NCBI GenBank assembly: GCA_963169875.1
Contig: CAUJEL010000082.1
Location: 1-42,753, forward strand
From: Candidatus Zhuqueibacterota bacterium
GTDB lineage: Bacteria; Zhuqueibacterota; Zhuqueibacteria; Residuimicrobiales; Residuimicrobiaceae
Direction: 5' to 3'
DNA: 42,753 nucleotides
The notes under the pieces were generated by a model. It was not told the DNA's origin, searched no databases, and was given only the letters and a program-made list of their open reading frames with translations. Below, in pieces: positions 4,706 to 22,223 of this stretch (within the stretch, counting starts at the first letter, position 1; every line of letters begins with the position of its first letter). The position numbers were made by a program, and so were the translations under genes.

Positions 4706-5365
4706 TCAGCGCACGCCATTGGCCATGGCGCGTTTTTTCTTGCTGTCCAGTCCGATGTTTTTCAGGGTTCTTCTCAACGCAAACCAACCGACTTTAATAT
4801 TGCCATGGGCCGGCGTATTCAACGTCCGCGCCAGTTGGATGGTGCTGATATCAGGATTCGCCGCGATGATCTTGCGGATTTTTTCTTCCAGGCCCTCAGT
4901 CCGGCCTGAATCCGCTGCCAGCGTAGATTCCGGTCTTGCGCTTGCCGGCCGCCGCGGGGAATCGACATCGACTTCCGCGACCGGCACCGTTTCGCTCATG
5001 GGCCCCAGCGTGCGTTCGAAATCTTTGATGGCTTCTTCAATGGAATCGAACGCTTTGAGGATATAATGAAACTCCAGCAATTCGAACACCTCATACACCT
5101 CGGGGATCATCCGTACCAGCTTCAAGTCGCCGCCGCGTTCCCGAATCCCCTTGATTTCGCTGATAAAAATGCCCCAGCCCGCACTGCTGACGTAATCCAC
5201 ATTACCCAGATCGATCACGATATTGAAAGAACCGGCTTTTAGCAAAGAACTCAATGCATGTTCCAATTCTGAAGACGTGGTCGTGTCGATGTAGCCACCC
5301 ACCTTGATTATTGAAATGCTGCTTTTTGAACCCGTCTTTTCCACCGACAATTGAATGCCTTCCAT
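4706..5365 (-). CDS. STAS anti-sigma factor antagonist with C-terminal DNA-binding-like domain
   Basis: A partner-switching antagonist, normally phosphorylated on Ser by an RsbW-type kinase and reactivated by a PP2C phosphatase. Residues 1-115 are a STAS domain. DYVSSAGWGIF (57-67) is the phosphorylation loop, and alignment with SpoIIAA/RsbV points to Ser61, with Ser60 next to it. Residues 120-155 are a Pro/Ser/Ala/Glu linker. Residues 157-212 form a helical, basic-ended domain (EEKIRKIIAANPD...LRRTLKNIGLDSKKKR). This domain resembles residues 735-795 of the neighbouring kinase/phosphatase in spacing and key residues. Antagonists are usually about 110 aa, so this extension is unusual. The start ATG at 5365 has GGAG 8 nt upstream, and the gene has its own strong promoter. 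It lies directly after the kinase/phosphatase gene, its likely partner. Confidence 0.88.
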   Translation of the reverse strand: MEGIQLSVEKTGSKSSISIIKVGGYIDTTTSSELEHALSSLLKAGSFNIVIDLGNVDYVSSAGWGIFISEIKGIRERGGDLKLVRMIPEVYEVFELLEFHYILKAFDSIEEAIKDFERTLGPMSETVPVAEVDVDSPRRPASARPESTLAADSGRTEGLEEKIRKIIAANPDISTIQLARTLNTPAHGNIKVGWFALRRTLKNIGLDSKKKRAMANGVR

Positions 5366-5528: not shown

Positions 5529-8500
5529 TCAGGTTGATTCCGACTGATTCATGAAGCGTTTGGCCCGTTGGATGCTGTCTCGTATATCGCGCCGGTCCGG
5601 GGAGATTTGCAGCAGCTGCTCCCAGTAATAAATCGCCTGTGGAAACGCCCCTTGATTGGCATAAATGACGCCCAGTTTCTCGTGCGCATCGCGGTTCTTT
5701 GGATCGATTTTCAGCAATAGCCGGAATTGTTGCGCCGCTTCGCGATATCGTTGCGTCCGAAAATACGACTGCCCCAATAAAGCTCTTATCTGGCCGTCGT
5801 CACCATGCCGGGAAAGAATCGATTTACATATGTCGATGGTCTGCTCGAATTCTTCCGTCAAAAAGAGGCTGAGGGCCTGGGCCAGGGCGCGATCGCGCTC
5901 CGGATCGGAAGCATGATAGGCGCCCGATTCTCCATGGCCTTCTCCTTCGGCAGGTTTTTGCCCATGCCCGTTGCCGGAACCGGATTGCGCCCATTTCTCC
6001 TCCGGGGCCGGGTCTGTGCTTAACAGATCGATCAGCTCATCAAACGATAGACGATGCTCCGATCTTTCGGTCCTGTCAGGCACCGCCTCTTCAGGGTCCG
6101 GCTCCTTCAAGGTCCAGGATAAATCTTCCGCTGGCGTTTCCGGCTGGCTTTCGCGATTGATCCGGTCAGCGATCTCACTTTGCAATATCTGATCAACAAT
6201 ATCGCTCTCCAGCTCTCCGGTGGCGTTGTTGATGAGACGCTGCTCGTCATCCATTTCCAGAAATTCGTCAAAGGCATCTGACAAGGCCGGCGCCAGGTCG
6301 GCCGCAAAATCCGCGGCATCATCGACGTGAATCGCTTCTTCCTGAACTATTTCAGCATCTTCTGCCGGCGGCTTGGGGAAAAGTTCGTTATCATGCTGTT
6401 GCGCAAAAGGATCTTCCAGACCGCCGCCTTCATTGAGCATGGCGGCGAAATCAAATTCATCGCTGCTGGATTGCGCCTCGTGCTCGGCCGCAGGCGGAAG
6501 CGTCAACGCCTCAGGCGCCGCAGCCTGCTCCTCCTCCGCGATTTGAGAATCAGCAAAAGCACCCGGGCCCGCACCCTGATCCAGCTCATTCTGCGCTGCG
6601 GGCGCATTTTCCCGGGACTCGCTGCCGGCGTATGAAAATCCCAGCTCCTCCAACGAGAGGTCGTTTTCCGCGGTTGGTTTATCCGCGTTGTCCTCGAGTT
6701 GTTCTGCCACAACCGCAGTCACCGCTTCCGTCTCCGGCGGCATGCCATTGTAACGTTTATCGAATAAATCCTCCATGGGCGTATTCATCAGTTCATCGAT
6801 GCCGATGGAGAGAATATTGCGGCCCTGATACTCGTCTTCCCCCCGGGGGGGCACAGACGTTGTTTCGGGCTGGGGCGACTGTTCTTCTTGCGGGTGGGGG
6901 ATGGGTTTTCCCGCGGCCGCATGCAAACGTCGTGGCGGCGCAGCGCGCTCGTCCGGGCTTTCCTCCCCTTCATCGGGAAGATCGGCGAGGCCTCCTTTTT
7001 GAATGATCACCCGTCCATCCAGTGTCAGCATGGGGGTTCCTGGGGGTTTCGGCCGCCGTTTTTTGCCGCCCCGGTTGACAAACGCCTCCCGTAATTCCTT
7101 GGTATTTAACTTGGCGCGAACCAATTCTTCGTAAATCTTGGCCGGGGCCAATTCGAGGAACCCATAGCGCTCCGTTAAAAGCTCTTCCGCGATCTTTTTT
7201 GCGCCATACTCCGGATGGCGCATGATAATGTCATAGAGCTTGGTTTTCTCTTCGATGCTGAGATGTTTGCTCTCAATGGACTCAATTTCCCCGGTCTCCA
7301 GTTCCTCGACTTTGCCGCCCTCGAACAACTCTTTATATTTGCTGTAATAGGCATAGGTTGACAAACCTTCGGCTTCGCACGCTTCGCGAATATTACTGCC
7401 TTGTTGCAAACGCGCATAGACCCGCTTGGCCCGATCCAGTTCAATTTTTTCCGCCGTGGATTGTTCTTTGATGGCCACCAGCGTGATATCATCGCTCTGC
7501 GCCGTTCCCTCGGTGAACGAAAGCAGATCCTCATGCAATTTTTCCACAAAATCACTGGCTTGCTGGTTGCCATATTCCCGAATGACGTTGAGAAAGCGTT
7601 CTTCCCCGTACAATTGCCGCCGCCGGTTCATCGCTTCGGTGATGCCATCGGTATACATGAGAAGAATATCTCCCTCATTCAGAGAGAGGGTATCAGACTC
7701 TATGGTATTGCGAAAAAGATTTTTATCCGGCAGAGAAATGCCGATGGGGAATCCATGGGGATTCAGATAATAGGTTTTCTTGCGGCTGGGCCGGTACAAA
7801 ATCATGGGATTATGCCCGGCACTGGCATAGTTGAGGCGGCGGCGCTTGGAATCGATGATGACGTAGAAAAGCGTGACAAACATACCTTTTTTCATGTCAT
7901 TGACCACGAACTCGTTGACGCGCGCCAAAACCTCAGCGGCATCCTTGATCCCGCGCGCCTCGGTGCGCAGCGCCGTACGGATCATGGTCATGACCAGAGA
8001 GCCGGGAACGCCTTTTCCCGACACATCCGCCACAACGATACCCAGCGTGTCCTTGTCCACTTCGACAAAATCGTAATAATCACCGCCCACTTCTTTTGCT
8101 GCAGCATAGTAGGTGTCCAGCTGGTAGCCTTCAATTTCCGGAAACTCGCTCGGCAGCAGGGTTTGCTGGATTTCCTGCGCCACCTGCATCTCTTTCTGCA
8201 GCCGTTCCTGCTCGGCCAGGTTGACCTGCGATTCCCGTAATTTAAGCGTGATATCGCTGAAGGCCTGAGCGATCTCGCCGATCTCGGTGCTTGCGTCGAT
8301 GTCCATCTCGTCGGCGACGCCGGGTTGTCCCAGCTGCTTCACCCATTCCGACAGGCGGCGGAAAGGATTCATAACCAGATAGATGAGCAGAAAAAGTCCG
8401 GCAGCGCCGATCAACCACACCAATCCGGTCAGGTTGAGATCACTCCACCTCGCCCGGGAGATGTCACTTCGAACCGAATTGTATTGAATGAGAAAGTGGG

Positions 8501-9461
8501 CTTTGCAGAGGGTTTTTCCCCCTTCGTCGAGCACCGGATAAACGATATCAATGACTTCTTCACCGGAAGTGAATTTGTAGGTATAGACATCTTGCTCAAT
8601 GCTCCTGGCGTCCGCGGGTTGGTCATAATGTTCCAGTACCAGGCCGTCTTCGCTGCTGGCCAGGATGAAACCATTGTTATCGATGATGAATGCGCGATAA
8701 AGGATATCGCGGTACTCGGACATTTGCAGGGTATTGATGCCGCGGGCCGTATGAGCCAGGATGTCAATGTCGTCGGGTAGATTGGTGCCGTCGATCAGGT
8801 TTTGCCGCACCGTTTCGTTGAGCTGCTGCTGCATATTGGTGGAGACATCACTGGCCAGTACGGAAAGTGCGGTGCGGCCGCGCACCAGATAATCATCGGT
8901 TATGGCCTCTTCGCGCCGGAAAAAATAATAGAAATAGATGCTGAGGAGAAAAACCGTGAAAACGGCCATGGCAACGAACCAATATCGGGCCTTGAGATTC
9001 AACGAGAGCGAGGGCACCACCATGCGGCGCTTGCGCGCAACATCGCGATACTTGGACAGCCACAGCTCATTGCCTTCTTCTGTTTTGCGATAATCGATCT
9101 CGTCCAGAAGCCGGCGCATGATAAAAATGCCCAGTCCGCCTTTTTTGCCGATATCGACGTAGCGCTGCAGATCGGGATCGCTGACCTGTCTTGGGTCAAA
9201 ATATTTGCCCTGGTCGATCAGGACGATGGTCAAGCAGTTTTTCTTGACGATGGCGCGAATGGTGATGTTGCCTTCCCAGTCGCGATAGGCGTGTTTGATG
9301 ATATTGGTGGCGGCTTCATCGATGGATAGCTTGAAAGCGTTAATCACCCTTTCGGAGAACCCATGGCGGTGGCCTACTTTGGTGACAAAATCCCGCAATT
9401 CTCCGAGATACTCAATTTTTGCCGGGACTTTTAGCTGCTCTTTTAATACACTCTGAAACAA
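5529..9461 (-). CDS. Fused RsbW-type kinase, membrane sensor, SpoIIE/RsbU phosphatase, HTH and TPR protein
   Basis: A 1310-aa protein with both enzymes of a partner switch. Residues 1-140 are a GHKL anti-sigma kinase (N box DEAATNIIKHAY 48-59, D93-Q-G95, glycine loop GKKGGLGIFIM 105-115). Membrane segments at about 157-181 and 344-365 flank an extracytoplasmic sensor region of about 160 aa, followed by HAMP (365-415) and a short coiled coil. Residues 445-665 are a PP2C phosphatase with its metal-site motifs: GGDYYDF (459-465), VADVSGKGVPG (477-487), YTDG (603-606), SDDIT (656-660). Residues 672-795 contain two HTH-like segments resembling those of IS3-type transposases. Residues 800-1190 are acidic and probably disordered; 1190-1290 are TPRs. 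The start is TTG at 9461 with AGGGGA about 9 nt upstream; no ATG is close. It begins 3 nt after the PorV-like gene. The likely substrate is the STAS protein next door. Confidence 0.9.
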   Translation of the reverse strand: MFQSVLKEQLKVPAKIEYLGELRDFVTKVGHRHGFSERVINAFKLSIDEAATNIIKHAYRDWEGNITIRAIVKKNCLTIVLIDQGKYFDPRQVSDPDLQRYVDIGKKGGLGIFIMRRLLDEIDYRKTEEGNELWLSKYRDVARKRRMVVPSLSLNLKARYWFVAMAVFTVFLLSIYFYYFFRREEAITDDYLVRGRTALSVLASDVSTNMQQQLNETVRQNLIDGTNLPDDIDILAHTARGINTLQMSEYRDILYRAFIIDNNGFILASSEDGLVLEHYDQPADARSIEQDVYTYKFTSGEEVIDIVYPVLDEGGKTLCKAHFLIQYNSVRSDISRARWSDLNLTGLVWLIGAAGLFLLIYLVMNPFRRLSEWVKQLGQPGVADEMDIDASTEIGEIAQAFSDITLKLRESQVNLAEQERLQKEMQVAQEIQQTLLPSEFPEIEGYQLDTYYAAAKEVGGDYYDFVEVDKDTLGIVVADVSGKGVPGSLVMTMIRTALRTEARGIKDAAEVLARVNEFVVNDMKKGMFVTLFYVIIDSKRRRLNYASAGHNPMILYRPSRKKTYYLNPHGFPIGISLPDKNLFRNTIESDTLSLNEGDILLMYTDGITEAMNRRRQLYGEERFLNVIREYGNQQASDFVEKLHEDLLSFTEGTAQSDDITLVAIKEQSTAEKIELDRAKRVYARLQQGSNIREACEAEGLSTYAYYSKYKELFEGGKVEELETGEIESIESKHLSIEEKTKLYDIIMRHPEYGAKKIAEELLTERYGFLELAPAKIYEELVRAKLNTKELREAFVNRGGKKRRPKPPGTPMLTLDGRVIIQKGGLADLPDEGEESPDERAAPPRRLHAAAGKPIPHPQEEQSPQPETTSVPPRGEDEYQGRNILSIGIDELMNTPMEDLFDKRYNGMPPETEAVTAVVAEQLEDNADKPTAENDLSLEELGFSYAGSESRENAPAAQNELDQGAGPGAFADSQIAEEEQAAAPEALTLPPAAEHEAQSSSDEFDFAAMLNEGGGLEDPFAQQHDNELFPKPPAEDAEIVQEEAIHVDDAADFAADLAPALSDAFDEFLEMDDEQRLINNATGELESDIVDQILQSEIADRINRESQPETPAEDLSWTLKEPDPEEAVPDRTERSEHRLSFDELIDLLSTDPAPEEKWAQSGSGNGHGQKPAEGEGHGESGAYHASDPERDRALAQALSLFLTEEFEQTIDICKSILSRHGDDGQIRALLGQSYFRTQRYREAAQQFRLLLKIDPKNRDAHEKLGVIYANQGAFPQAIYYWEQLLQISPDRRDIRDSIQRAKRFMNQSEST
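7077..7448 (-). other. Transposase-like HTH segments inside the kinase/phosphatase
   Basis: This stretch encodes residues 672-795. The first part (RAKRVYARLQQGSNIREACEA then GLSTYAYYSKYKELF) looks like the helix-turn-helix of IS3 OrfA-type proteins. The second (MRHPEYGAKKIAEELL, then KIYEELVRAKL) looks like the HTH_21-type region before an IS3 integrase core. No catalytic DDE core follows, and the reading frame is intact on both sides. It therefore reads as an incorporated DNA-binding or protein-binding unit, not an insertion. Confidence 0.55.
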
Positions 9462-9464
9462 ATT

Positions 9465-11459
9465 TTATCTTCCCCTGGTCTGACTGCCCTGGGTGTTTGT
9501 TTGCCTCTGTAAATTTTCACGCGCCGAATCAAGCGCTTTCAGGATTGTTTTATTCAAGGGTTGCAGTTTGCGCGCTTCTTCAAAGTACTGAACCGCCTCT
9601 TCATATTTGTGCTGGCCGTATGCATTGACCCCTTTTCTGTAAACTTCGCGAACATTGTCCGGCATGACCATCTCTTTGGCATTTGCACGCGCATCCGCTT
9701 CCCGGAATCGTTCCTGCAGGGATTGATTGCCCGGATCATAGCGCAGCGCTTCCCGATACAGGGACGCCGCCTCAGCCCAGTTTTGATTCATTTCCTGCGA
9801 TTTCGCCCGGCGAATGAGATCCTCCCGGCTCAACCTGCTTTCAATGGTGGATATCTGACCCGCCAGAAATGTTTCAATGTCCGGAATACCTCGCGCCAGC
9901 TGCCGCGCCTGATTATACAGCGTTATGGCATCGTAACCGCGATCCTGAAGCTGCAGTTGACGCGCGCGTTCCGCCAGATCTCTGATCTTTTTCCGCAGCT
10001 GCTCATCGGCATTCTTGCGCAACAACTGCACACGCTCACTGGTCGAATCAATGGCCAGGGCCTGATCACACTGGATCAGGGCTTCCGGGAAATCCTCCAG
10101 ACTGAAAGCATTGAGCGCTTTCTGATAATGCTCTTCAATGAGAAGATTGTTGCGCTTGATGCGCATTTCTTCTTCATTGCGGGCGAGAATTTCCGCTTCC
10201 TCTTTGCGGCGCTGCTCCTCCAGTGCCGCATTGATCTGTTGCTGCAATTTTCTCGCGTCTTCCAGGTCCGGATCATTGCCGGTCACATCATAAAAAAGCA
10301 CCTTGCTGATCGCCGCATAGGCGCCGGTATAATCGTTGCGCGCAAACAAAACCCGCGCCCGGCTTTGGCCGGAGACGATCGCCTGGGAACGTTCTTCACG
10401 CCGTTTCGCAGCCAATTCGGCTTCAATCCTTTGTGCCTCGCGCTCGCGATAATCGGCCAGGCGTTGTTCGCGGCCTTTGCCGATATTCAAAACCGCCGAC
10501 ATGCGATGGCTGCCGGCGATCAATGCGTCGCTTCCGGTCCAATACGAATAATCGAAAGCAACACCCGCAATTTTGGCGCCGCCACCGAAGGTCATCTGAT
10601 CGCCATAGAATCCTGTTCTGAGAAAAATCGTATTCTCATAGCCGTATTCAAGCCCCATGCGCAGTTGGCCCGGCATGGTCTTGGTTTTATCATACTCCAG
10701 CGCTATTTGTATCCCACTGGATCCCCCGCCCAAACCTATCTTTTTCCCCATGCCAAAACGGTACATGCGCGGTGTGCTTTCCCTGCTTTCGACGGCACGA
10801 ATGGAACGCTGCAGCAGGTTTTGGATGTTCAGGGCAAAACTCAAATCTTTTAACAGTGGAGCGGACGAGGCCGGGGTCAACAACAACCCTGCATCAGCGC
10901 CCAACGCCGACTCGGATAACGACGCGACGCTGCCGCTGCCTGCGTCCGGATAACCTGGCAGGGTGGCTCTTTCCACTTTGACCGTGGTGCCAATGGACCA
11001 CCATGGTGCCGGGCGATAACCATATCCAAATAAAAACAGCGTTCTTCCATAGGAGAGGCTGCCCAGCTTGATCGGGTAGAGATCATCGTAAATATCAATG
11101 TCCGGCGTCGACAGGCTCAGCACGCCGATGCTGAATGTGCCAATGAACAGCGTTGGATGGGCATACGCCAGATAGCTGTATTGTGTGCCAGCCAGCAAGT
11201 TGGTATAGTAGACGCCCAGACTCATGTGCTGCACATTCTGCAGCGCGGCTGGATTCCAATACAAGGCAAATGGATCATCCGCGCTCGCCACATACGCGCC
11301 ACCCATGGCCAGGGCACGAGCGCCAACCGGGAAATCGAATATATCATTGGCCCCGCCCCAGGCATGTTCCTGCTGTACGCCCTGAGCAAAAGCGCCGGCA
11401 ACAAACACAACGGCCAAAACAAGGCTAAAGGTAAGGTATTTTATTTTTGTTTGATTCAC
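9465..11459 (-). CDS. PorV/PorQ-family outer membrane protein with C-terminal TPR region
   Basis: An exported protein: signal peptide 1-26 ending AGAFAQ. The barrel region (about 30-328) opens with the family signature GARALAMGGAYVASADDPFA then YWNPAAL, and has alternating beta-strand patterns to VLNIGKG. A charged coiled coil (330-365, AELAAKRREER) leads to TPR-like repeats (370-660). PorV and PorQ work in type IX secretion, PorV as a shuttle for secreted cargo. That role is family knowledge; this member differs by its large TPR extension, which presumably faces the periplasm. The start is GTG at 11459, 21 nt after the stop of the giant secreted protein, with no strong ribosome-binding site, so coupling is likely. 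The TTG of the kinase/phosphatase follows 3 nt after its stop. Confidence 0.87.
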   Translation of the reverse strand: MNQTKIKYLTFSLVLAVVFVAGAFAQGVQQEHAWGGANDIFDFPVGARALAMGGAYVASADDPFALYWNPAALQNVQHMSLGVYYTNLLAGTQYSYLAYAHPTLFIGTFSIGVLSLSTPDIDIYDDLYPIKLGSLSYGRTLFLFGYGYRPAPWWSIGTTVKVERATLPGYPDAGSGSVASLSESALGADAGLLLTPASSAPLLKDLSFALNIQNLLQRSIRAVESRESTPRMYRFGMGKKIGLGGGSSGIQIALEYDKTKTMPGQLRMGLEYGYENTIFLRTGFYGDQMTFGGGAKIAGVAFDYSYWTGSDALIAGSHRMSAVLNIGKGREQRLADYREREAQRIEAELAAKRREERSQAIVSGQSRARVLFARNDYTGAYAAISKVLFYDVTGNDPDLEDARKLQQQINAALEEQRRKEEAEILARNEEEMRIKRNNLLIEEHYQKALNAFSLEDFPEALIQCDQALAIDSTSERVQLLRKNADEQLRKKIRDLAERARQLQLQDRGYDAITLYNQARQLARGIPDIETFLAGQISTIESRLSREDLIRRAKSQEMNQNWAEAASLYREALRYDPGNQSLQERFREADARANAKEMVMPDNVREVYRKGVNAYGQHKYEEAVQYFEEARKLQPLNKTILKALDSARENLQRQTNTQGSQTRGR

Positions 11460-11480: not shown

Positions 11481-11795
11481 TTATTTTATCACGGCGATCT
11501 TGGTGACCGCCACTTTGCCATCTTCTGTTTTAAGATAGGCGAGATAAACTCCGTTCATCACTTTATCGCCGCGGCCGTTGCGTCCGTCCCAGGTGATGTC
11601 ATCCTGATGCACGCCTGCACTGGTTTGCCGGGGATGCGCCGCTTTGGTGAATTCCCAGGCATAGACCAGATCCCCGGTCAGAGTAAAAATCTTCAGTTGA
11701 AAATCGCCAGCTTCCTGCAAATAATATACAAATTTCGTGACCGGCCGGCTGGATGTTCCAAAGGGATTGGGATAATTGCAAAAAGATTCTTCGAG
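11481..11795 (-). other. C-terminal FlgD-like/type IX sorting-like domain
   Basis: Encodes about residues 3477-3580 of the giant protein. YPNPF, the LxIFTLTGDLV strand, WDGRNGRGDKVMNGVYL and a terminal KIAVIK strand are the hallmarks of this C-terminal domain in FCB secreted proteins. It is the main sequence evidence that the giant protein is a type IX-like cargo. Confidence 0.75.
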
Positions 11796-14700
11796 CGCAT
11801 CTTCGACGATCACCAGCGTGCCCGAGTTATACCCCAGATATTGCACCGGCGCCAGAGTCGAATCCATGATGCCCAGGCGGCTGTGATAAATGGCATCGCG
11901 CGCTATGATGGCTGATGAAGAATCGATCGACACGGTAAAATCGCTGATTTGCGCCGCGGCCGCGATATCCACAATCAGATCGAACTTGTACTCGTCGGCC
12001 GCACGGATCGTATCCGGCGTCGCCGATGTAAAATGGAGAACCACTTCCGGGCTGTTACCCGGTGAGGTGTTTTCTGCGATTACTCTTGTGGGTTGATCAT
12101 GCTCCACAGCGGCAATGCGGCTGATGACCGATCTCGCGGCAACCGCCGCGCCGCTTCTGTTTTTAATCTTCACCCTGACGGTATCCAGCAGTGACTTGGT
12201 CCCAACCGATTCATCTTTATTCTGCAACGACACCCCCAACAGAGGGATTGCTTTGCCACCGCGCAGAGTGACAGAGGCCGGCTTTACAGCGAAGGATTTG
12301 ATGACCATGAATCCGGATTGCGGCTGCACCAGAACCATCGCCGAGTCGGCCACAATATCTGCATCGGTTCCTGAAAGCAAGTCTTTGGGAGGACGCGTGA
12401 GTTTTACGACCAGCGTGTCCGCATCCGGGCTCACGTTTTCAGGGGCTTTTATCCGCCATGTCCATTGCTTCGCGTCCGTGGTCACCGATTTATCGTTCCT
12501 GGTGGTATAGCCAGGCGGCAGCCGCAACTGCATCTGGTAGGTGCCATAATAATCGGCGGTACCCAGGTTCTGCAGCGTAGAGGAGAGATCAAATTCATTG
12601 CCGATACTAATCGGTACCACCACCTCCGGCGGCTGCTCATTTATTTGCGCCCGCATTTCAACCCGCGCACGCTGCACGACATAGATCGGGTAACTGATTC
12701 GCGAAAAATCGGTTACCGCACTCAAGCCGGAATTGGCGTCTTTGGGCAAATCAAGGACACTGAACCAGATATCAAAAAGCGTATCCTGGCTCGCCGCCGG
12801 GGCGCGCAAATTCCACACCAGACTGTCAAGGCCGCTTTTTACCAGCGTTTCCCCCTCTGTAATGAAGGAAGAGGGAACAAACAGCTGCACACGGGGCACG
12901 TCTGCCGGATTCGGCAAAGCGGTATCGGATTGATGGTTGATGTATAACGTCAACTGGAAATCCGATTTGCTGGAAATCATATTGGTCAAACCCGCGGGCG
13001 CGGAAATGCGCGCACTGAAATTGAATTTCGTTCGCGGCTGCGTCGTTACGGTGATGTTGCTGCTGCTATTGGGCACGATCGGAGTGCCGGAGCGATAGTC
13101 TTTCGCGCTCACGGTAAGGGATATGGCATTGTTCGCCGCGGGTTCCGCGGGCGCGATCATATTCCATTTCACGACCTGGTTCGGGCCCGCGGGTACGGAT
13201 ACCGCCGGGTTATTGGTCTGGAATCCGCCTGTGAAGCCGATCTCCGCCATCATTTCCTTGACATTAGTAGAGGTGATGGTCGCTGTAATGTCAAAGCTCT
13301 GTCCCGCGGAGACCGTGCGATCTGTTGCCCCTGTCGGGCTGCTGATATAAAAGTTTTTCAACTGCACAACGCCACGCGGCTCCGTGCGTACATTCAGGTA
13401 ACTTGCCCCTTTACCGATATTTGCAGGGATGTTGGTATTGGTGTCCTGCGGCGCTTCTGTGATTTCAGCATAGATGGCGCGGCTGTCGAGAATGGTTGTA
13501 TTCGAGGCCCTGACGGCCCAACTGATGTCTGATCCAATGGTGAATGTTTGCACCGAATCGCCTGCGTTCAAGCGCAGTCCGCTTCTTTGCAGATGCAGCG
13601 TGACCTTTCCGCGGCCATTGACTTTTGCCGCGCCCTGATTAGTGACCAGCGTTTTCAACGTGGCCAGCTGATCCGTGGAAAAATTGGCCTGGCCATTTTC
13701 CATGACGCCATCCACTGGATCGCTCACAATCAGGAAATCAAGATACAGACTGGCCCGTTCTACAATTTTGTTGATCGTCACATTTTTCTGAATCGTTTGC
13801 CAACCGTCCGCCGAAAGACCCTTGGCCTCAGCCATAAAGATCCTTGGAATATCTGTCCCGGTTTCCGGCATCTGTATGCGCCAATAAACGGTGTCAGGAT
13901 TGGTCAAGATGGGCTGTGTTTCACTGCTCAGCAGTGAAAAAACCGGATCGCTTGGCAGAACAATCCTCACGCTCTTGTTCTCGATATTGCTGGTCGCGTG
14001 AACAACGGCGCGCAACGTCAACTGCTGCCCGGTTGACACCTCTCCATCTCGCGCCCCTTTCGGGGAATCGATGATGAAATCGAGGGTTAACCCGGAGCGC
14101 AGCGTGGTGAACACCAGGCTGGTTTGCATTTTTTCGGCAGCGGCCGCCTGCTTTTCGTTCTCATCCTGGGGTATTTGCGTGATCTGTACGCCGATGGCAT
14201 CGCTGAACGAATCGTTGTTCGGCGCCAACAGATGCAGCGTATCCATCACACTGGTCTGGCCCATCGGAATTGAGAACGCCCGCTCCATATCACCGTCGGC
14301 GAGCGCATAGTTTTTACCAGCCGGGAGCTGAAGCGTGAATTTCCCACTGCTCAAGGCTGCGGTACCCAGATTGAGCAATTTGACATGGACCGTGAAAAAT
14401 TGTCCGGCTGTTAGTATGCTGTCCTGACCGGATTCGCGCATGAGTTGAACATCAACTTTGGCCGGATTTTGAATGCGCATCAGGGCGATGGCATCGGTCG
14501 GCCGTGCCGGCTCCCGAACCTCCGCCGGCAACTGGGATCCCTCGGCTTTTGCCGAAAGTATCCTTGCCGTCCAGGTCTCGGTGCGCTCCCGCAGCAGCGC
14601 CTCCCAGCTGTCATCGGTGACCACCTGAAATTTGACGCTGTCTCTGCTGCCTTTGCCGATATGACCGATGACCAGAACAGGTTGAATGATGCTGGAAGCC

Positions 14701-17700
14701 CCGGCACAGGAGAGTTCTATGCGCACCGAATCAACGCCGGTTATTTCGCTGGTTTCAGCTTCCACCTTGATCTCTGCCAGCCGGCCCCGGTTCACCAGCG
14801 CCCGCCCCAGATTGTCGTAATTTTTGGCCACAACCGAGGTGAGATTGATGCGCACCCAGGAGTAGCTATTAACCGTCATGGTCGTCTTGCCGGTCGCGGT
14901 CATCAGATTGCTTGCGCCCGGAGCTTTATTCTGGTCCGATGCTTGCAGATTAACCCTGACCTCAGCATCCCCGGCAATTTTGCCAACCTGGGTCACGATG
15001 AACAGCAGGCTGTCCTGCCGGCCACCTGCCAATATCAACCCATCCGCACTCACCAGTTTGGCGGGCGCATTGACCTGATAGTAAGTATCGACATTACCCT
15101 GCACCGAGAAAGTTATGTTGGCCGGCGAGATGTTTTCGAATTTCAAGTCTGCCGCGCCGTCATTGATCACCTTCACATAAATCCGCCAATCATTCTGATT
15201 GTCGCCGGCTGTGACATTTGCCGGCGCCGCCACGGATACGATGCGCAGGTTCGCAGCCGCTTCTACGGTGACTGACGTGGAAGAATCCTGCCCCACCCGA
15301 TTCACCGGGGCTGGCGTGCCCGCATTAACCCCTTTGGAAGATCGTATCTCCGAGCCGATATTGACCAGCCCTGGAAGTGTTTCCGCCATGGCCGTGAAAG
15401 TCACCAGACCAGTATCCCCGGATGCGAGGCGCGCCGGCATCACCAGATCATTTTTCGTAAATCTGATGCGGTTTCCCGGCTCTGACACCAGGTGCACTTT
15501 CACCGAATCGATGGCCTCTGTGCCCAGGTTTTTAACATAGACATCCACAGGGAAGGTTTGCTGGTAACTTACCGTTCTATCGGGATTTGGCGTGTTGGCA
15601 TGGGTGTTTATCAACCGCAATTCGGCCGGCCGGTAGATTTTCAACATCACCGTTGAATCCGGCGACAGGGACGCCTTGGCGATGGAACCGTCCTCGCCAA
15701 CAGCTCTGGGAATGTCGGCTGTTAATGTTTCACCCATCAAGTTTTCCAGGGTATCCGCCTGGACCTGAAACGTGATCAAGCGGAAATAATCCGTATCGCT
15801 AACGCCCAAATCGTTGATAACTTGCGGATTTGTACCGAGAATTGTCGACCGCGTGCCGCGCAGGCGCACGTACACGCTGTCCAAAACCTGGCCGCCGTTA
15901 TTTTCAACCCGAACCTGAACATTTAGCCGCTGTCTGGTATTAACATGCACGATGCCCTGGTCATCAACATTATATGCTTTGCCATCGACATTGGTTTGCG
16001 CAATCTGCACGCGCGCAGAAGTCGAGATGAATATTTCATCCTGCCCCGTCTGCGGATTAATGATCCGGGAAGGATCATTGCCGTCCGCCGCACGGAGGCG
16101 CGCGGTGACCGGCATGATCCCGCTGCCGGCTCCGGAGACCGTGACCTCATAGGTGAGTCTCTTCGCGACGCCGAAAGTCAACCGGCGTTCCTCGGCGGAG
16201 AGGACCGGCGCCGCCACCGCAAATCCGGGTCTGAGGGTGATATCGCTGGCCGCCGGGGGTTCCAGCAGGAGCACCCCCTGGCCGCTATTGGCAACATCCA
16301 CATAGATGTACCAGGGCTTGACCGATCCCGAGGGGATGGTGTCTTTTGACGTGCTCACCTGCACAATTTGCAGGATGCCGGGCTGCTGAATGGCCAGGAT
16401 GGCGGTGGTATCCTGTGCTGAGACACCGGGCAGCTGCGTTGCAGATTGGCCCGTATTATGGGCTTCAGAACTGATGATATGTACGGTTAAATTATCAAAG
16501 ACATTGGCCACATTCCCGGCTTTCACGAGCAGCCCCGGCTCGGTCCACTTGCTGGATGCGGCGCGGATGGAATCGATCTGCACTTCCTGTCCATTGGGAA
16601 ACAGCACAAACCCGTCGCCGCGCCAGCCAATTCGTACACGGCGGGCCCAATCTCCTTCGCCGGGATTGGTCACTTTGGCCTGAAGATAAAATTCCTGCCC
16701 TGTGTTGGCGAACGATTTTTGCGGTAAAACCGCGCGGACGCTGTCAATGCGCACTTTCGCCGAATCCTGAACCAGGACGTTCACGGTTTTTCCCAAATCG
16801 CCGCTGTCGACCAGTAAAACCCGGGCAGTGTTGTTTTCAGTCGTCTGAATTCGGACATCGATCTGGAAGGGGCCAAGAACTGCGGGCTCGGCGCTGACGG
16901 ATAGTACGCTCCATTGCAAACTGTCGCTGTGACCGGCATCCAGGAGCAGCGTGTTGCTGCCGAGAAACGCCAGCGGCGGTTGTATGGTATAGAACGCGTC
17001 CCCGTTGGAGAACCGCAGCTGCGTCTGCGCCAGGTCAAGCGTCATCTGGCTGCCGCCGCTGTTGCTCACTCTGGCACGAATGTGCCAGGGGACATTTTGC
17101 CCCCGGGAAACCGTGCTCTGGCTGCTGCTCAAGTCCGCCAACTGCAGTTCAGCCGGCGATTGCACCAGTACATATCCGCTGTTTCCTTCGTTCGTCTGCT
17201 CATCCACCTTGCGGAAAGTCTGCGTCGAATCGGTCAACCAGATGTGGCCTGCGATGGTGACCTGCCCCGGCAGCATGCCGGGACTGATGCCGTTGACACC
17301 ATAGCGAATCGTGGAAGAAGCTGCGCCGCGCAGGTACCGTGAACCATTTATAAAGGTATCCGGATTGCTGACCTGGAAAAGAGCGGAGACGTCTTGCGAG
17401 CCCAGCAGAAAGCTGATCTGGGTGGAGTCGAGAAACATGGTGGCGCTGCCATTGTTGGTGACGTCCAGTTCGATAAACCACGGTTTCGTCTGGCCGATGG
17501 TTGCCGTGGCTGCCAGGCTGCGCAAGGCCGTGATCATCACCTCGCGCGGATCCCCGACCGTGACCATGTTATTCGTCAAGTTGATAATCTGTTCAAAAGG
17601 ATCGCCATTTTGCGCGCCAACAAGGTGCAATTCGGGCGTGTAGCGGCCGGTGCGAAAGTCGATCGGCAGACTCTGGGCATTGAAATAAAGCGTCTGGCTG

Positions 17701-20700
17701 TCACTGCCCGGTATCCGGGTTGACAGAGCAGCATCCAGCAGGGTGGTAAATGTGATTGCGCCGTCCGTAAAGGTCAGATAGGTGGACCCGGCCTCCAGGA
17801 GCAGCATGGATTCACCGCTATTGAGCACATTCACCTGGAATCGATAAAAAGCGCCGCCGGAAATATAGGAGGGTTGCATGGAATTGGCCTGAACCGAGAG
17901 ACTGGCCGGCGTCTGAATGGTCAACGAGGCTGTTGGGGCCAGATTGGACAACCGCACCGGGCGGTTGCGATTCACTTCTTTCCCGGCGACGCGCACCTCG
18001 ACTTGCAGCACACTGTCAGCCGCGCCCATGCTCACACCTGTGAAAATCAGGCTGTCCGCAGTGCCCGCTTTTAATAGCCGGGTGCCACTGCCCACCAGAG
18101 CCGCCGGCATTTGCAGCGTATAATCGCTCTGCCAGATGCCATCCTTGAACAAACGGACATAGGTGCTGTCCGTATTGTCCAAATCGAGGAGAATGTCGCC
18201 GGCGTTGGCCTGACTGTTCAAATGCAGGGTGATATGCCAGGGGGTTGTGCCGTTTTGCGTCAGCGTATCGGGAACAACCGCGATAGCAGAGATATAGCCA
18301 TTGGCCGGATTCTGCAAAGTGACGGTTCCCTGGGCACTTGGCAAGGTCTTGGCGCTGTCCGGTTTGCCGCTGTTAAGATTGGCAAAATAGAGTGCGGCGT
18401 CGATGGTTTCGAGCCCCAGGGATTCTCCGGCCCGCCGCACGGCAAACCGCAGGGTATCACTTTGTCCGCTCTTGAGTATCGTGCCCCATTGCAGCAGCTT
18501 TGGCCGCGCCAGGATAAAACTGTCGCTATTGGCAAAGACCAGCATGGAGCGCAGGGTGTCCATTTCGACGGCGCTGCCGCCCTGATTGCTCACCAGCACA
18601 TCGATGTGCCAGTCGAAAGTCGTGTCGAGAGCGGTGACGGTGGGCTGAGAGGCGCGCACCTGGGCGATGCGGATGTCTTCGCTGGTTTGCACCTCGACGC
18701 TTCCAAAGGCATCGCTGGCCACCAGCCCTTCCAGCGTTTTGATGCGGCTGAAAATGGAATAGGTGCCCGCCTGCAGCGTTGTCGCAGAGACGCCATAGAG
18801 GACCGACCTGGTTTCGCCGCTCGACAGGCTGGTCGTGCCATCTGAAAATGCGGCCGGGGCCACCATGACAAACTGGTTGCTATAGTCTGTGCCCGCGCGG
18901 CGGAATTGAACGAATGTCTCCGATGGACTAAAGTCCATGGTGAGCGGGAATGATCCTGTGTTCTTGACATCCACACGCACCTGCCAGGGGGTTGTCTGCC
19001 CCTGGGTTACGGCTGGTTGTGATGGTTGAATCTCGACAATTTGCAGACTGCCCGCTTCAACGCTGTAAAACAAATCCGGCATGGCCGCCTGTGCAAATTT
19101 GGTGACCATGGTGTTGCTCTCCACATATTGAACAGTGGGATGAACAAATACATAGCCCTGTGGAGCAACTGTGGAGGATTGTAAATAATACTTCAGTTTT
19201 GCGGTTTGCAATGCCGTCAAAATGACCGGATTCGTGACGTCCTTTGTAACTCTGAATGAATCGGAGGCATCCGTCATGTTGTTGAGCAGAAACTGAAATG
19301 AGGTCGACTGGATAAGTGCATTGGCAAAATAGGCATCCGTGCCATTTTGAACTTCGACCTCAATGGCAATTTGTTGTTGCCCCTGCTGCACGGTATCCGC
19401 CAGGACGTCAATGCTTTTGATTAAAAGATTGGCCTCATTCTGGACAAACCAGCTATGGGTGGTTCCGCCGGGCAAGGCGCTGTCCACTACCAGGGTGGTC
19501 CCGCTGAATTTTCCGCTCATGGAGCCATCGATAACCGTGTTGATTCCCGCGGTGCTGCCCCCCAGAACGCGCACATAAAAAGTGAGCTGCTCGGTGCTGG
19601 GGCCTGCGGGCGTACGCGCAGGGATGGTTATGGCGGTAGAAGGTCCTGTAAAAGAGTAGCTGCCATTGCTGAATTTTAATTGCCCCACAACATCCGTGAG
19701 CGGTAACGTCCCCCAATTTTGAATCTCCATGACCACCGGGATATTGGACTGCCCGATACTGACCCTGGCGGCATCCGCGCGGATGCGGCTGATCAGGGCG
19801 GCGCTCACGTCTATCTGGCCGCTGGTATCCGCTATTTGCGGGGTGGTGTTCAAGGCGCGCACATATATCCGCTGCGCGCCAGGTGTGGCCAACTTGAAGA
19901 GATTGGCGGCATACACGCGCTGTGAAGCATTGACAAAGGTATCGTCCCCAGGCAGGGAAGCACTGGCATCGCTGCTGCTGAAATGGAGGGTGCCGCTAAA
20001 CGTATTGCTGTTGCCAAAATCATCATAAAATCGTACGGTGATATCGCCCGGAAATGTGCTGTTCAGGGGGATCGTCGCGGGGATTCCGCTCATCTGTATA
20101 TTCCCCAGCGGCCCGGCGGTGACGGAGATCACCGCGGTGGTATCGGCACAAACAACCACAGGACCGGAAAAGACTTCGCCGATCAGCCGGGCGCTCTCAA
20201 CCTTGACCAGTGTCTGAAAAGCTTGGCCAATGCCTCCGACCACGGTGATGGGCGTCAGAATCGGCGATTGCCCGTTGGGCGATACGCTTGCTCCGGTCAT
20301 GGCCCGGATAATTACCGTCCCATCGGCTGCATTCCCATAGGCATCCCGCGCGTCGTAAACTTGCAGCGGGAAACTGACGCCCGCAGCTTGCGAGGCATTC
20401 ACATTGAGAGCAAAAGACGTGACCATGCCGCTGGCGACTCTGACCGCATCGGTTTTTTGTGAAAACGACGCCGTTTGTACTGACAGGGTTTGATTGCCGG
20501 TGGTTTTGAAAACAAAAGCGTTTCCGCTGATTTTGTAACGCCCCTTGTCACTCACCTGAAAGTTATACGAAGCGGGCAATTGGGCGGCCGGATCAGAGCT
20601 GGCAAATGTCAGGAGTCCGGTATAATCTACTTTGGCATTCCCATAAAGATCTTGTACATCCACGATCATGGAATCGATGCCGCCCAAAGTTTGCCCGGCG

Positions 20701-22223
20701 GAGACCCATGACGGCAAGGGGCTCTTCAAGGTCAGATCGAGTCCACCGACGCTCCCCGGGGACACCGTAAAGGGATCTGTATCATCTGTAAAACCGGGGA
20801 CGGAACCGCGCAGGCGAACGCCGCTTTCGGTTTTAAAGAGCGTGACGCTCCCGGTTCCAACCCCATTCACAACTTGCACTTGTGAAAAGACCGGTGTGGT
20901 TCCGTCCGGCGCGGTGTGCGGCTGGCCATCATTAAAGGCGATATTCACCGTGCCGTTGGTCGAATTCCCCCCCGCATCCACAGCGCCGCTGACGGTGACC
21001 GTCGTGGCCACGCCCGCGGTCACAGCGGTGGGGATGGACAGGATAAAACTGCTGATGGCGCCCGGCGTGACCACGATATTGCCGGTTGAATTGCTCAGGG
21101 TTCCGTCTGAAACCCAAATCTTTTGCAGTCCGGCTGTTGACAGCCGGAAGGAGCTGGCGGAAAAGATGCGTTCGCCATTGATGAGCATCGCAGCAGCCGG
21201 CAAAGCGGCAAAGGGATCGCTGCTGGAGAAACTGACGGTTCCCGCATAGGCGGTGGCGACATTGCCGTACAGGTCGTTGGCGCGAACGGTGATATCGCTG
21301 CTGAAGGAGACGCCGGAGGCGATGGTTGCCGGTTCGCCGCTGAGGGTTAGTTTTCCGGCGCCGCCCGGCACCACGTTAAAGGCATTGCTGTTACGGCTGA
21401 AGAGGGTTGAACTGCCGCGCAGGACCACGCCGGTCTCCGCGGCGAACAGAATCTGATTGGCCTGACCCGCGCCATTGAACAGGCTCACGGAATTGAGTAC
21501 CGGCAGCGCGCCCGATGGCGAGGGACTGCCACCGCTCAACGCATTGATGGTTACCGTGCCCCCGGCGGGGTGCTGATAAACATCCTTTGCGTTGATAATT
21601 TTCAAGGCAAAGGAGACGCCTGCGGTCTGCACCGCTATGGTCTCGATGTCGAAGGTATTCGCCGGGCCGTCGATGTGATATGGATCAGACGTGCCACTTT
21701 CCATCAACTTGTAGGGCGGCGGAGGGGGAATGGTCGGCTGGCTGTCGTATATCTTTACCGTTACCCTGGCATCCAAATGTTGTGTTCGTGGATTGCGAAT
21801 CAGAGCCAGGATCAGGCCGACCGAGCTGCCGGCGGAAATGTCCATGCCATATCCGTCCCGGAGCAGGCGGATGGAATCGCTGAAAACCTGGACCTGACTG
21901 AAGCCCCCGCGCCACTGCGGCTGTGCTACCCCGCCGTTGGTGACGGCACCGAACGCCGCGATCACCGACCCCGAAGAAAAGCCAAATTCCGGCTTTCCGG
22001 TGATCAGGGAATCCGGGAACTCGATGACGATGGTTCCGGTTCTCGATATCGTGATAGAATTCGTAAATCGAATAAAATGAGTGGCCAATTGGCCGCTGGC
22101 GTAGGTCGAGAGGCTGTCTTTCGCCTGCGTAATCGCCCCGGCCGCTTTTTCCACACCAGCCAACCCCAGGAGCAGGCAGATAAAGGTCACATATGTATAT
22201 TTCTTATTCAACACACCATCCAT
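11481..22223 (-). CDS. Giant secreted repeat protein (3580 aa) with C-terminal sorting-like domain
   Basis: Not a named family. Residues 7-30 are a signal peptide (KKYTYVTFICLLLGLAGV). Residues 30-195 resemble the small exported protein encoded just upstream. Residues 196-805 hold three copies of a roughly 200-aa unit with two alternating Ig-like modules. Residues 806 to about 3470 hold about 20 diverged CARDB-like beta-sandwich repeats of 110-150 aa, each starting with a pattern like LQIVEIQPSQPAVTQGQTTP and then V.V.N.G. The last 104 residues carry YPNPF, FTLTGDLVYAWEF, ITWDGRNGRGDKVMNGVYL and KIAVIK, as in FlgD-like/type IX C-terminal sorting domains. There is no recognisable enzyme domain and very little Cys. 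I infer a cell-surface or extracellular adhesin/filament exported by a type IX-like route. The ATG at 22223 lies 12 nt after the upstream stop, without a strong ribosome-binding site. Confidence 0.88.
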   Translation of the reverse strand: MDGVLNKKYTYVTFICLLLGLAGVEKAAGAITQAKDSLSTYASGQLATHFIRFTNSITISRTGTIVIEFPDSLITGKPEFGFSSGSVIAAFGAVTNGGVAQPQWRGGFSQVQVFSDSIRLLRDGYGMDISAGSSVGLILALIRNPRTQHLDARVTVKIYDSQPTIPPPPPYKLMESGTSDPYHIDGPANTFDIETIAVQTAGVSFALKIINAKDVYQHPAGGTVTINALSGGSPSPSGALPVLNSVSLFNGAGQANQILFAAETGVVLRGSSTLFSRNSNAFNVVPGGAGKLTLSGEPATIASGVSFSSDITVRANDLYGNVATAYAGTVSFSSSDPFAALPAAAMLINGERIFSASSFRLSTAGLQKIWVSDGTLSNSTGNIVVTPGAISSFILSIPTAVTAGVATTVTVSGAVDAGGNSTNGTVNIAFNDGQPHTAPDGTTPVFSQVQVVNGVGTGSVTLFKTESGVRLRGSVPGFTDDTDPFTVSPGSVGGLDLTLKSPLPSWVSAGQTLGGIDSMIVDVQDLYGNAKVDYTGLLTFASSDPAAQLPASYNFQVSDKGRYKISGNAFVFKTTGNQTLSVQTASFSQKTDAVRVASGMVTSFALNVNASQAAGVSFPLQVYDARDAYGNAADGTVIIRAMTGASVSPNGQSPILTPITVVGGIGQAFQTLVKVESARLIGEVFSGPVVVCADTTAVISVTAGPLGNIQMSGIPATIPLNSTFPGDITVRFYDDFGNSNTFSGTLHFSSSDASASLPGDDTFVNASQRVYAANLFKLATPGAQRIYVRALNTTPQIADTSGQIDVSAALISRIRADAARVSIGQSNIPVVMEIQNWGTLPLTDVVGQLKFSNGSYSFTGPSTAITIPARTPAGPSTEQLTFYVRVLGGSTAGINTVIDGSMSGKFSGTTLVVDSALPGGTTHSWFVQNEANLLIKSIDVLADTVQQGQQQIAIEVEVQNGTDAYFANALIQSTSFQFLLNNMTDASDSFRVTKDVTNPVILTALQTAKLKYYLQSSTVAPQGYVFVHPTVQYVESNTMVTKFAQAAMPDLFYSVEAGSLQIVEIQPSQPAVTQGQTTPWQVRVDVKNTGSFPLTMDFSPSETFVQFRRAGTDYSNQFVMVAPAAFSDGTTSLSSGETRSVLYGVSATTLQAGTYSIFSRIKTLEGLVASDAFGSVEVQTSEDIRIAQVRASQPTVTALDTTFDWHIDVLVSNQGGSAVEMDTLRSMLVFANSDSFILARPKLLQWGTILKSGQSDTLRFAVRRAGESLGLETIDAALYFANLNSGKPDSAKTLPSAQGTVTLQNPANGYISAIAVVPDTLTQNGTTPWHITLHLNSQANAGDILLDLDNTDSTYVRLFKDGIWQSDYTLQMPAALVGSGTRLLKAGTADSLIFTGVSMGAADSVLQVEVRVAGKEVNRNRPVRLSNLAPTASLTIQTPASLSVQANSMQPSYISGGAFYRFQVNVLNSGESMLLLEAGSTYLTFTDGAITFTTLLDAALSTRIPGSDSQTLYFNAQSLPIDFRTGRYTPELHLVGAQNGDPFEQIINLTNNMVTVGDPREVMITALRSLAATATIGQTKPWFIELDVTNNGSATMFLDSTQISFLLGSQDVSALFQVSNPDTFINGSRYLRGAASSTIRYGVNGISPGMLPGQVTIAGHIWLTDSTQTFRKVDEQTNEGNSGYVLVQSPAELQLADLSSSQSTVSRGQNVPWHIRARVSNSGGSQMTLDLAQTQLRFSNGDAFYTIQPPLAFLGSNTLLLDAGHSDSLQWSVLSVSAEPAVLGPFQIDVRIQTTENNTARVLLVDSGDLGKTVNVLVQDSAKVRIDSVRAVLPQKSFANTGQEFYLQAKVTNPGEGDWARRVRIGWRGDGFVLFPNGQEVQIDSIRAASSKWTEPGLLVKAGNVANVFDNLTVHIISSEAHNTGQSATQLPGVSAQDTTAILAIQQPGILQIVQVSTSKDTIPSGSVKPWYIYVDVANSGQGVLLLEPPAASDITLRPGFAVAAPVLSAEERRLTFGVAKRLTYEVTVSGAGSGIMPVTARLRAADGNDPSRIINPQTGQDEIFISTSARVQIAQTNVDGKAYNVDDQGIVHVNTRQRLNVQVRVENNGGQVLDSVYVRLRGTRSTILGTNPQVINDLGVSDTDYFRLITFQVQADTLENLMGETLTADIPRAVGEDGSIAKASLSPDSTVMLKIYRPAELRLINTHANTPNPDRTVSYQQTFPVDVYVKNLGTEAIDSVKVHLVSEPGNRIRFTKNDLVMPARLASGDTGLVTFTAMAETLPGLVNIGSEIRSSKGVNAGTPAPVNRVGQDSSTSVTVEAAANLRIVSVAAPANVTAGDNQNDWRIYVKVINDGAADLKFENISPANITFSVQGNVDTYYQVNAPAKLVSADGLILAGGRQDSLLFIVTQVGKIAGDAEVRVNLQASDQNKAPGASNLMTATGKTTMTVNSYSWVRINLTSVVAKNYDNLGRALVNRGRLAEIKVEAETSEITGVDSVRIELSCAGASSIIQPVLVIGHIGKGSRDSVKFQVVTDDSWEALLRERTETWTARILSAKAEGSQLPAEVREPARPTDAIALMRIQNPAKVDVQLMRESGQDSILTAGQFFTVHVKLLNLGTAALSSGKFTLQLPAGKNYALADGDMERAFSIPMGQTSVMDTLHLLAPNNDSFSDAIGVQITQIPQDENEKQAAAAEKMQTSLVFTTLRSGLTLDFIIDSPKGARDGEVSTGQQLTLRAVVHATSNIENKSVRIVLPSDPVFSLLSSETQPILTNPDTVYWRIQMPETGTDIPRIFMAEAKGLSADGWQTIQKNVTINKIVERASLYLDFLIVSDPVDGVMENGQANFSTDQLATLKTLVTNQGAAKVNGRGKVTLHLQRSGLRLNAGDSVQTFTIGSDISWAVRASNTTILDSRAIYAEITEAPQDTNTNIPANIGKGASYLNVRTEPRGVVQLKNFYISSPTGATDRTVSAGQSFDITATITSTNVKEMMAEIGFTGGFQTNNPAVSVPAGPNQVVKWNMIAPAEPAANNAISLTVSAKDYRSGTPIVPNSSSNITVTTQPRTKFNFSARISAPAGLTNMISSKSDFQLTLYINHQSDTALPNPADVPRVQLFVPSSFITEGETLVKSGLDSLVWNLRAPAASQDTLFDIWFSVLDLPKDANSGLSAVTDFSRISYPIYVVQRARVEMRAQINEQPPEVVVPISIGNEFDLSSTLQNLGTADYYGTYQMQLRLPPGYTTRNDKSVTTDAKQWTWRIKAPENVSPDADTLVVKLTRPPKDLLSGTDADIVADSAMVLVQPQSGFMVIKSFAVKPASVTLRGGKAIPLLGVSLQNKDESVGTKSLLDTVRVKIKNRSGAAVAARSVISRIAAVEHDQPTRVIAENTSPGNSPEVVLHFTSATPDTIRAADEYKFDLIVDIAAAAQISDFTVSIDSSSAIIARDAIYHSRLGIMDSTLAPVQYLGYNSGTLVIVEDALEESFCNYPNPFGTSSRPVTKFVYYLQEAGDFQLKIFTLTGDLVYAWEFTKAAHPRQTSAGVHQDDITWDGRNGRGDKVMNGVYLAYLKTEDGKVAVTKIAVIK
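11796..19808 (-). repeat. About 20 tandem CARDB-like protein repeats
   Basis: Residues 806 to about 3476 of the giant protein. Repeats start with a hydrophobic strand plus a Pro/Thr/Gly stretch and W.(I/V).V.V.N.G. Examples are LQIVEIQPSQPAVTQGQTTP, IRIAQVRASQPTVTALDTTF, LQLADLSSSQSTVSRGQNVP and LQIVQVSTSKDTIPSGSVKP. They have diverged strongly at the DNA level, so this is an old expansion rather than a recent one. Confidence 0.75.
19809..21638 (-). repeat. Three tandem two-module Ig-like repeats
   Basis: Residues 196-805 of the giant protein alternate module A (residues about 200-285, 388-490, 600-700; ...GVSF.L.....D.YGN...GTV.I) with module B (286-387, 491-599, 700-805; D.YGN....Y.GT..FSSSD....LPA). 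The SSSDP/ASSDP/SSSDA cores lie about 210 residues apart. This is clearly a triplicated block, distinct from the CARDB-like repeats after it. Confidence 0.8.

Follow-up and report, generated by a model that had tools for sequence, protein, structure and literature searches.

Several proteins are known, from experimental work, in which a kinase and a phosphatase that act on a STAS protein share one chain. SypE has an N-terminal kinase that needs its asparagine N52, a REC receiver domain and a C-terminal PP2C phosphatase, and it sets the phosphorylation of SypA, a STAS protein of a polysaccharide locus (PMC3610818, PMC4517449); SypA is the most thoroughly studied STAS switch of such a locus, and its target has been described as unknown (PMC8256260, PMC4517449). 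HsbR and CrsR are kinase-phosphatase fusions that bind RpoS (PMC6482189), and Rv1364c is another such fusion (PMC9138534; structure 3KE6). We analyzed a 42,753-nucleotide stretch of DNA (the window: contig CAUJEL010000082.1 of assembly GCA_963169875.1, from a Candidatus Zhuqueibacterota bacterium) that encodes a 1310-residue membrane protein, hereafter the sensor, with the two enzymes on either side of a transmembrane (TM) sensory region. We regard it as probable, from its sequence and by analogy with SypE, that the sensor is a two-way STAS enzyme: a membrane receptor that would both phosphorylate and dephosphorylate STAS proteins.

The sensor is a single open reading frame, preceded by a plausible ribosome-binding site, AGGGGAAG, about 8 nt upstream of its start codon (Table 1). 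Near full-length orthologues occur throughout the phylum, which excludes a chance reading frame. The two opposing enzymes that the original prediction had placed in this chain both score over their Pfam cut-offs: HATPase_c_2 at residues 12-137 (E 6e-26, 91 vs 27 bits) and SpoIIE at residues 470-665 (E 4e-53, 181 vs 25 bits), in agreement with the predicted N-terminal kinase, the predicted PP2C domain at about 445-665 and the modelled folds. The kinase domain aligns with Bacillus subtilis RsbW (6m36, E 5e-17), including the N-box E49/N53/H57, D83xG85 and the GGLG motif, and N53 is by its N-box position the counterpart of SypE N52. The PP2C domain aligns with Rv1364c and RssB.

The residues on which both activities depend are as intact as had been predicted. 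Our alignment of 47 sequences spans many families within the phylum and takes in one Latescibacterota sequence; at most 46 are independent, as L033 and L015 are one contig. Kinase residues E49, N53, H57, D83, G85, G109 and G111 and PP2C residues D461, D479, D605, D657 and D658 never change, unlike the sensory, linker and tetratricopeptide repeat (TPR) parts, which vary among orthologues. The AlphaFold2 model of the protein has a mean pLDDT (predicted local distance difference test) of 69. In it, the kinase superposes on RsbW 6m37 (Z 15.6, root-mean-square deviation (RMSD) 2.4 over 113 residues) and the PP2C domain on SpoIIE 5ucg (Z 21.3) and Rv1364c 3ke6 (Z 21.2). A pocket-less N-terminal fold, which would have spoken against a kinase, was not seen, because the fold matches RsbW and the N-box is intact. 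The chain thus holds an RsbW/SpoIIAB-type kinase (PF13581; GHKL fold, N-box E/N/H, G-boxes) and a SpoIIE/RsbU-type PP2C (PF07228; PP2C fold, metal-binding Asp), the kinase scoring below the RsbW equivalog cut-offs of NCBIfam TIGR01924 and NF003144 (79.4 vs 145 and 70 vs 155 bits).

By hydropathy, the protein has two TM segments with basic cytoplasmic flanks, and since the kinase precedes the first and the PP2C domain follows the second and its HAMP-like segment, both enzymes are expected to face the cytoplasm. The region between the helices is modelled with a pLDDT of mostly 70-92. No REC domain was matched in the protein; the two-TM sensor stands in its place. Towards the C-terminus, the TPRs are present as predicted (TPR_2, 44 vs 27), and what had been taken for about 400 acidic residues is a 357-residue linker (829-1185) holding 88 Asp/Glu.

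An orthologue of the sensor, near full-length or split at contig ends, was found in 76 of the 82 genomes of the phylum that we searched, and five of the six genomes that lack one are only 70-85% complete. Among named genomes, those with relatives go by the labels Calditrichota (69% identity) and, at 55%, candidate division KSB1. The STAS gene that had been predicted next to the sensor is real, and its product, STAS-A, is encoded downstream of the sensor, in the same orientation, in 69 of the 76 genomes; in the other seven it is on another contig or not listed. STAS-A has the adjacency of a cognate STAS protein and an invariant serine that is predicted to be phosphorylated.

The sensor and STAS-A also share a domain. 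Sensor residues 672-800 form two helix-turn-helix (HTH)-like units, the second of which is a homologue of the STAS-A C-terminal domain (hhalign 95%, E 2.4e-8, 70 columns). The HTH-like segments of the original prediction are supported across the family by HTH_32 (18/19 members, best 1.8e-6), HTH_28, HTH_23 and HTH_21, while the copy in the window matches HTH_32 only, weakly and below the cut-off. A profile of the sensor HTH-like region searched against the 82 whole genomes returned, besides the sensor, almost only frames of ~220-300 residues, and all those compared correspond to STAS-HTH proteins; in the other direction, the STAS profile recovered the sensor region. The relationship is one between profiles, since BLASTP of the window’s HTH-like sequence against its own STAS C-terminus found no match. 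Fold searches with the region were weak (best Foldseek E 0.35), and the top structural neighbours, Pax5 (Z 6.0, the highest) and Tc3 transposase (Z 5.3), scored little above unrelated proteins. We therefore use HTH-like as a label, assign no HTH family and do not claim DNA binding. Past the region lies a nearly invariant motif, KPPGTPMLTLDG (window 6996-7055, minus strand). The association extends beyond the phylum: in Latescibacterota (L035) three STAS domains end the sensor chain itself, and a STAS-HTH gene comes after a PP2C-HTH frame in both FCPU426 (L036) and Zixibacteria (L037).

Most genomes of the phylum encode two STAS-HTH proteins. In the source genome the second, STAS-B, is encoded between a GT5 gene (a starch-synthase-like glycosyltransferase) and Wza-like and Wzc-like genes, in a polysaccharide-export operon (Table 1). 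GT5, Wza and Wzc genes surround STAS-B in 21/21 genomes examined, spread over the phylum, and an epimerase and a sugar transferase follow in nearly all of them. The VSSAG serines of STAS-A and STAS-B are invariant (31/31). In every STAS-B examined, the C-terminus is a basic tail of the YRFYRSR or YRYYRSR type, which in one case begins MRFYRSR.

From these features we infer the activities of the sensor, its substrates, the direction of switching and the output. The kinase and PP2C domains would both be cytoplasmic and would flank an extracytoplasmic, Cache-like sensory domain, and the serine of VSSAG would be the site that the receptor phosphorylates and dephosphorylates. The helices would shift with the ligand state and so favour kinase or phosphatase, a role that the receiver domain plays in SypE. 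That one signal could set this balance, as originally proposed, is plausible, because one membrane sensor, encoded beside a STAS gene, joins two enzymes of opposite action whose active sites are intact. The likely substrates are STAS-A and STAS-B, both of which carry the receptor’s HTH-like domain; STAS-B is proposed as a substrate because it shares that domain, which may either dock the substrate to the enzyme or allow both to bind DNA. The output is probably envelope or exopolysaccharide production rather than SigB-type sigma release, and we suggest, tentatively, that the sensor system controls polysaccharide output. It is possible, though doubtful in this full form, that the system is a sigma-independent partner switch in which the receptor and the two STAS substrates meet through the HTH-like module, on DNA or directly, and the phosphorylation of STAS-A and STAS-B sets the transcription or activity of the exopolysaccharide operon. 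If true, KSB1 and related FCB phyla would share a conserved system of envelope control. Throughout the phylum, the predicted two-way enzyme is encoded beside one STAS gene, and a sister STAS gene lies in a polysaccharide-export operon. The shared HTH-like domain is a physical clue to a possible connection of enzyme, switch and output, and the sensor would rank among the core signalling proteins of a phylum that is represented here mainly by metagenome-assembled genomes.

Several observations weigh against the sensor being such a two-way enzyme with STAS-B among its substrates. The HAMP match after the second helix is below the cut-off, so of the originally predicted two-helix sensor with HAMP the two helices stand and the HAMP domain is weak. 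The Cache assignment is similarly uncertain (sCache_3_2, residues 257-335, E 0.008, below cut-off), and a WalK model matches residues 154-422 (E 5e-6), also below its cut-off. The ATP-lid region (87-117) is poorly modelled, with low pLDDT, and an intact-looking kinase domain need not be active, given that the title of a 2008 paper by Sachdeva, cited in PMC9138534, reports loss of kinase activity in Rv1364c. STAS-B is not adjacent to the sensor gene and may have other partners: five other kinases in the genome are clearly over the HATPase_c_2 cut-off, one of them sharing a contig with STAS-B, and there are about a dozen PP2C matches.

That Rv1364c title also lends something to the idea that one of the two domains is catalytically dead and serves as a scaffold or regulator, which the invariance of all catalytic residues checked, in both domains and all 47 sequences, makes highly improbable. 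The other switch components bear on whether the kinase and phosphatase act on different STAS proteins or sites and are hence not opposed. With twelve STAS matches alongside several kinases and phosphatases, partners for such an arrangement exist in the genome, and we nonetheless find it very unlikely, as the adjacent STAS-A gene is kept in most sensor-bearing genomes and STAS domains are fused to the chain in Latescibacterota.

Two further explanations place the output elsewhere. In a classical anti-sigma arrangement, the kinase domain would sequester a sigma factor, as CrsR does RpoS, STAS-A would free it, and the phosphatase would only reset the antagonist. The RsbW-type fold of the kinase and the RpoS binding of both CrsR and HsbR (PMC6482189) would suit this, and two ~300-residue sigma-70 proteins in the source genome remain candidates. 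However, no SigB/F/G-type sigma factor was found over the cut-off in that genome, which is 95.6% complete (best 117 vs 234 bits), making a classical sigma switch less likely; no sigma gene was noted beside the sensor, and STAS-B sits in a polysaccharide operon instead. We judge this arrangement improbable. It is also unlikely that the HTH-like region is itself the main output, the protein being a membrane-tethered DNA-binding regulator (in principle like ToxR or CadC) controlled by its own kinase and phosphatase and the STAS-HTH proteins. The HTH-like helices are in tandem, their best, weak structural neighbours are bipartite DNA-binding domains (Pax5, Tc3 transposase), an IS481 transposase model matches residues 681-790 below its cut-off, and STAS-B ends in a basic tail (YR[FY]YRSR). 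But the Z-scores are low, the RMSD nears 10 Å in matches spanning two units, the Pfam matches are sub-threshold, and protein docking fits equally. The SypE-like two-way enzyme remains the reading we prefer.

Table 1 Features of the sensor locus in the window and of the STAS-B operon in the same genome.
Feature	Position	Strand	Evidence or content
Whole sensor gene, 1310 aa, TTG start codon at 9461; predicted bifunctional membrane STAS kinase/phosphatase	5529..9461	-	Orthologues in 76/82 phylum genomes
RsbW/SpoIIAB-type kinase domain, residues 9-140; E49/N53/H57, D83xG85, GGLG 108-111	9042..9437	-	PF13581 E 6e-26; RsbW 6m36 E 5e-17; invariant in 47 sequences
TM helix 1, residues ~160-181, preceded by RKRR (cytoplasmic N-terminus)	8919..8984	-	Hydropathy
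Extracytoplasmic sensor region, residues 182-343; helices and beta sheet, weakly Cache-like, weakly WalK-like, poorly conserved	8433..8918	-	Sub-cut-off profile matches; model
TM helix 2, residues ~344-365	8367..8432	-	Hydropathy
HAMP-like segment (weak), residues 359-401	8259..8387	-	PF00672 17.6 vs 25 bits
SpoIIE/RsbU-type PP2C, residues 445-666; metal Asp D461, D479, D605, D657/D658	7464..8129	-	PF07228 E 4e-53; SpoIIE 5ucg, Rv1364c 3ke6; invariant in 47 sequences
Tandem HTH-like region, residues 672-800; second half homologous to STAS protein C-terminus	7062..7448	-	Profile comparisons
Nearly invariant motif region RPKPPGTPMLTLDGRVIIQK, residues 803-822	6996..7055	-	Alignment
Acidic low-conservation linker, residues 829-1185, 25% Asp/Glu	5907..6977	-	Composition
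C-terminal TPRs, residues 1186-1292, poorly conserved	5586..5906	-	Pfam
STAS-A, 219 aa; STAS domain and C-terminal HTH-like domain	4706..5365	-	PF01740 E 1e-17
S60/S61 of STAS-A within VSSAGWG, the predicted phosphoacceptor site; invariant in both STAS proteins (A and B)	5183..5188	-	Role inferred from SpoIIAA/RsbV/SypA
C-terminal HTH-like domain of STAS-A, residues ~157-212, homologous to sensor ~732-800	4730..4897	-	hhalign 95%, E 2.4e-8
Upstream PorV/PorQ-family outer-membrane protein with TPRs, 664 aa, stop 3 nt before sensor start	9465..11459	-	NF033709 111.7 vs 90 bits
Polysaccharide-export operon with STAS-HTH protein	L135:4454-12975 (G000:C34)		GT5, STAS-B, Wza-like (Poly_export), Wzc-like (GNVR, AAA), epimerase, sugar transferase

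The gene upstream of the sensor encodes a PorV/PorQ-family protein, and a homologue is present in the sensor 5′ flank in 28/28 loci that reach it, the window’s own copy and Latescibacterota included. It hints at a connection with type IX secretion or with the outer membrane, and the tie of the sensor gene to the cell envelope is one of gene position only. Farther upstream, the window encodes a 3580-residue secreted repeat protein (11481-22223, minus strand) with a C-terminus that gives weak matches to models of type IX secretion proteins; large open reading frames also lie upstream in L034 and L035. At the very end of the contig (42615-42685, minus strand) is a match to a group II intron (Rfam RF00029, 46 vs 40 bits).

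The source genome also has a second, conventional partner-switch operon (L133:2809-11222, G000:C157) with two PP2Cs, a STAS protein, a separate kinase and then two more PP2Cs. The fused system is thus an addition to, not a replacement for, one with separate genes. A 754-residue frame at this operon that resembled a second kinase-PP2C fusion was rejected, as the kinase (163 residues) and the PP2C (590 residues) are encoded by tandem genes with a TAA stop between them.

The fusion had originally been presented as a novelty, which does not hold: SypE, HsbR, CrsR and Rv1364c are published, and both domain orders occur in several phyla, so the fusion itself is no surprise. Bare kinase-PP2C fusions are common. 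Those without the HTH-like region have mostly the PP2C-kinase order in Ktedonobacteria, Chloroflexi, Clostridia, Spirochaetes and Fibrobacter and the kinase-PP2C order in Omnitrophota; loci of Planctomycetota, Spirochaetes and Aerophobetes with separate kinase, STAS and PP2C genes were not taken as fusions. Outside the phylum, the whole kinase-sensor-PP2C-HTH chain is found in Latescibacterota, and the PP2C-HTH ends of FCPU426 and Zixibacteria lie on short contigs. The Latescibacterota frame (L035:7953-12359) is 1469 residues long, running from kinase, sensor, PP2C and HTH to its three STAS domains, and two separate STAS genes follow. Within the phylum, paralogues of 1640-1990 residues that begin with this kinase-sensor-PP2C-HTH arrangement and continue into a very long C-terminal part (L137:5194-11172 in G026:C23, and similar ones in G031, G036, G059 and G061) were seen only in family f10.

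Our literature search turned up no description of such signalling in KSB1. As far as the literature consulted shows, what is new is the TM sensor between the enzymes, the HTH-like module shared with STAS proteins, the link to a polysaccharide-export operon and the conservation across the phylum; the last three were not part of the original prediction. The component enzyme families are those of RsbU/RsbW/RsbV of B. subtilis, where they are separate proteins with SigB as the target. SiaA of Pseudomonas aeruginosa is a sensor phosphatase with two TM helices, HAMP and PP2C (PMC7647112), a build that the sensor resembles with its weak HAMP-like segment, but in the SiaA/SiaB/SiaC system the kinase SiaB is separate and there is no HTH. 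HsbR/HsbA and CrsR/CrsA (Pseudomonas, Shewanella) combine PP2C and a kinase/anti-sigma domain in one chain with one STAS antagonist (PMC6482189), but in REC-PP2C-kinase order and with RpoS, FlgM and HsbD as targets. Rv1364c of Mycobacterium tuberculosis unites a sensor, PP2C and RsbW-type kinase, and 3KE6 holds both enzyme domains; its order is PAS-PP2C-kinase-STAS, with the STAS domain fused as in L035, whereas the sensor is kinase-sensor-PP2C-HTH with STAS separate. The closest analogue is SypE/SypA of Vibrio fischeri: SypE has the same N-terminal RsbW-type Ser kinase, regulatory centre and C-terminal PP2C, and it works in both directions on a STAS protein tied to a polysaccharide locus (PMC3610818, PMC4517449). 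SypE is a response regulator with REC, while the sensor has two TM helices, an HTH-like tandem, an acidic linker and TPRs, and its STAS proteins carry an extra HTH-like domain; because it lacks REC, we do not place it in the SypE-type response-regulator family.

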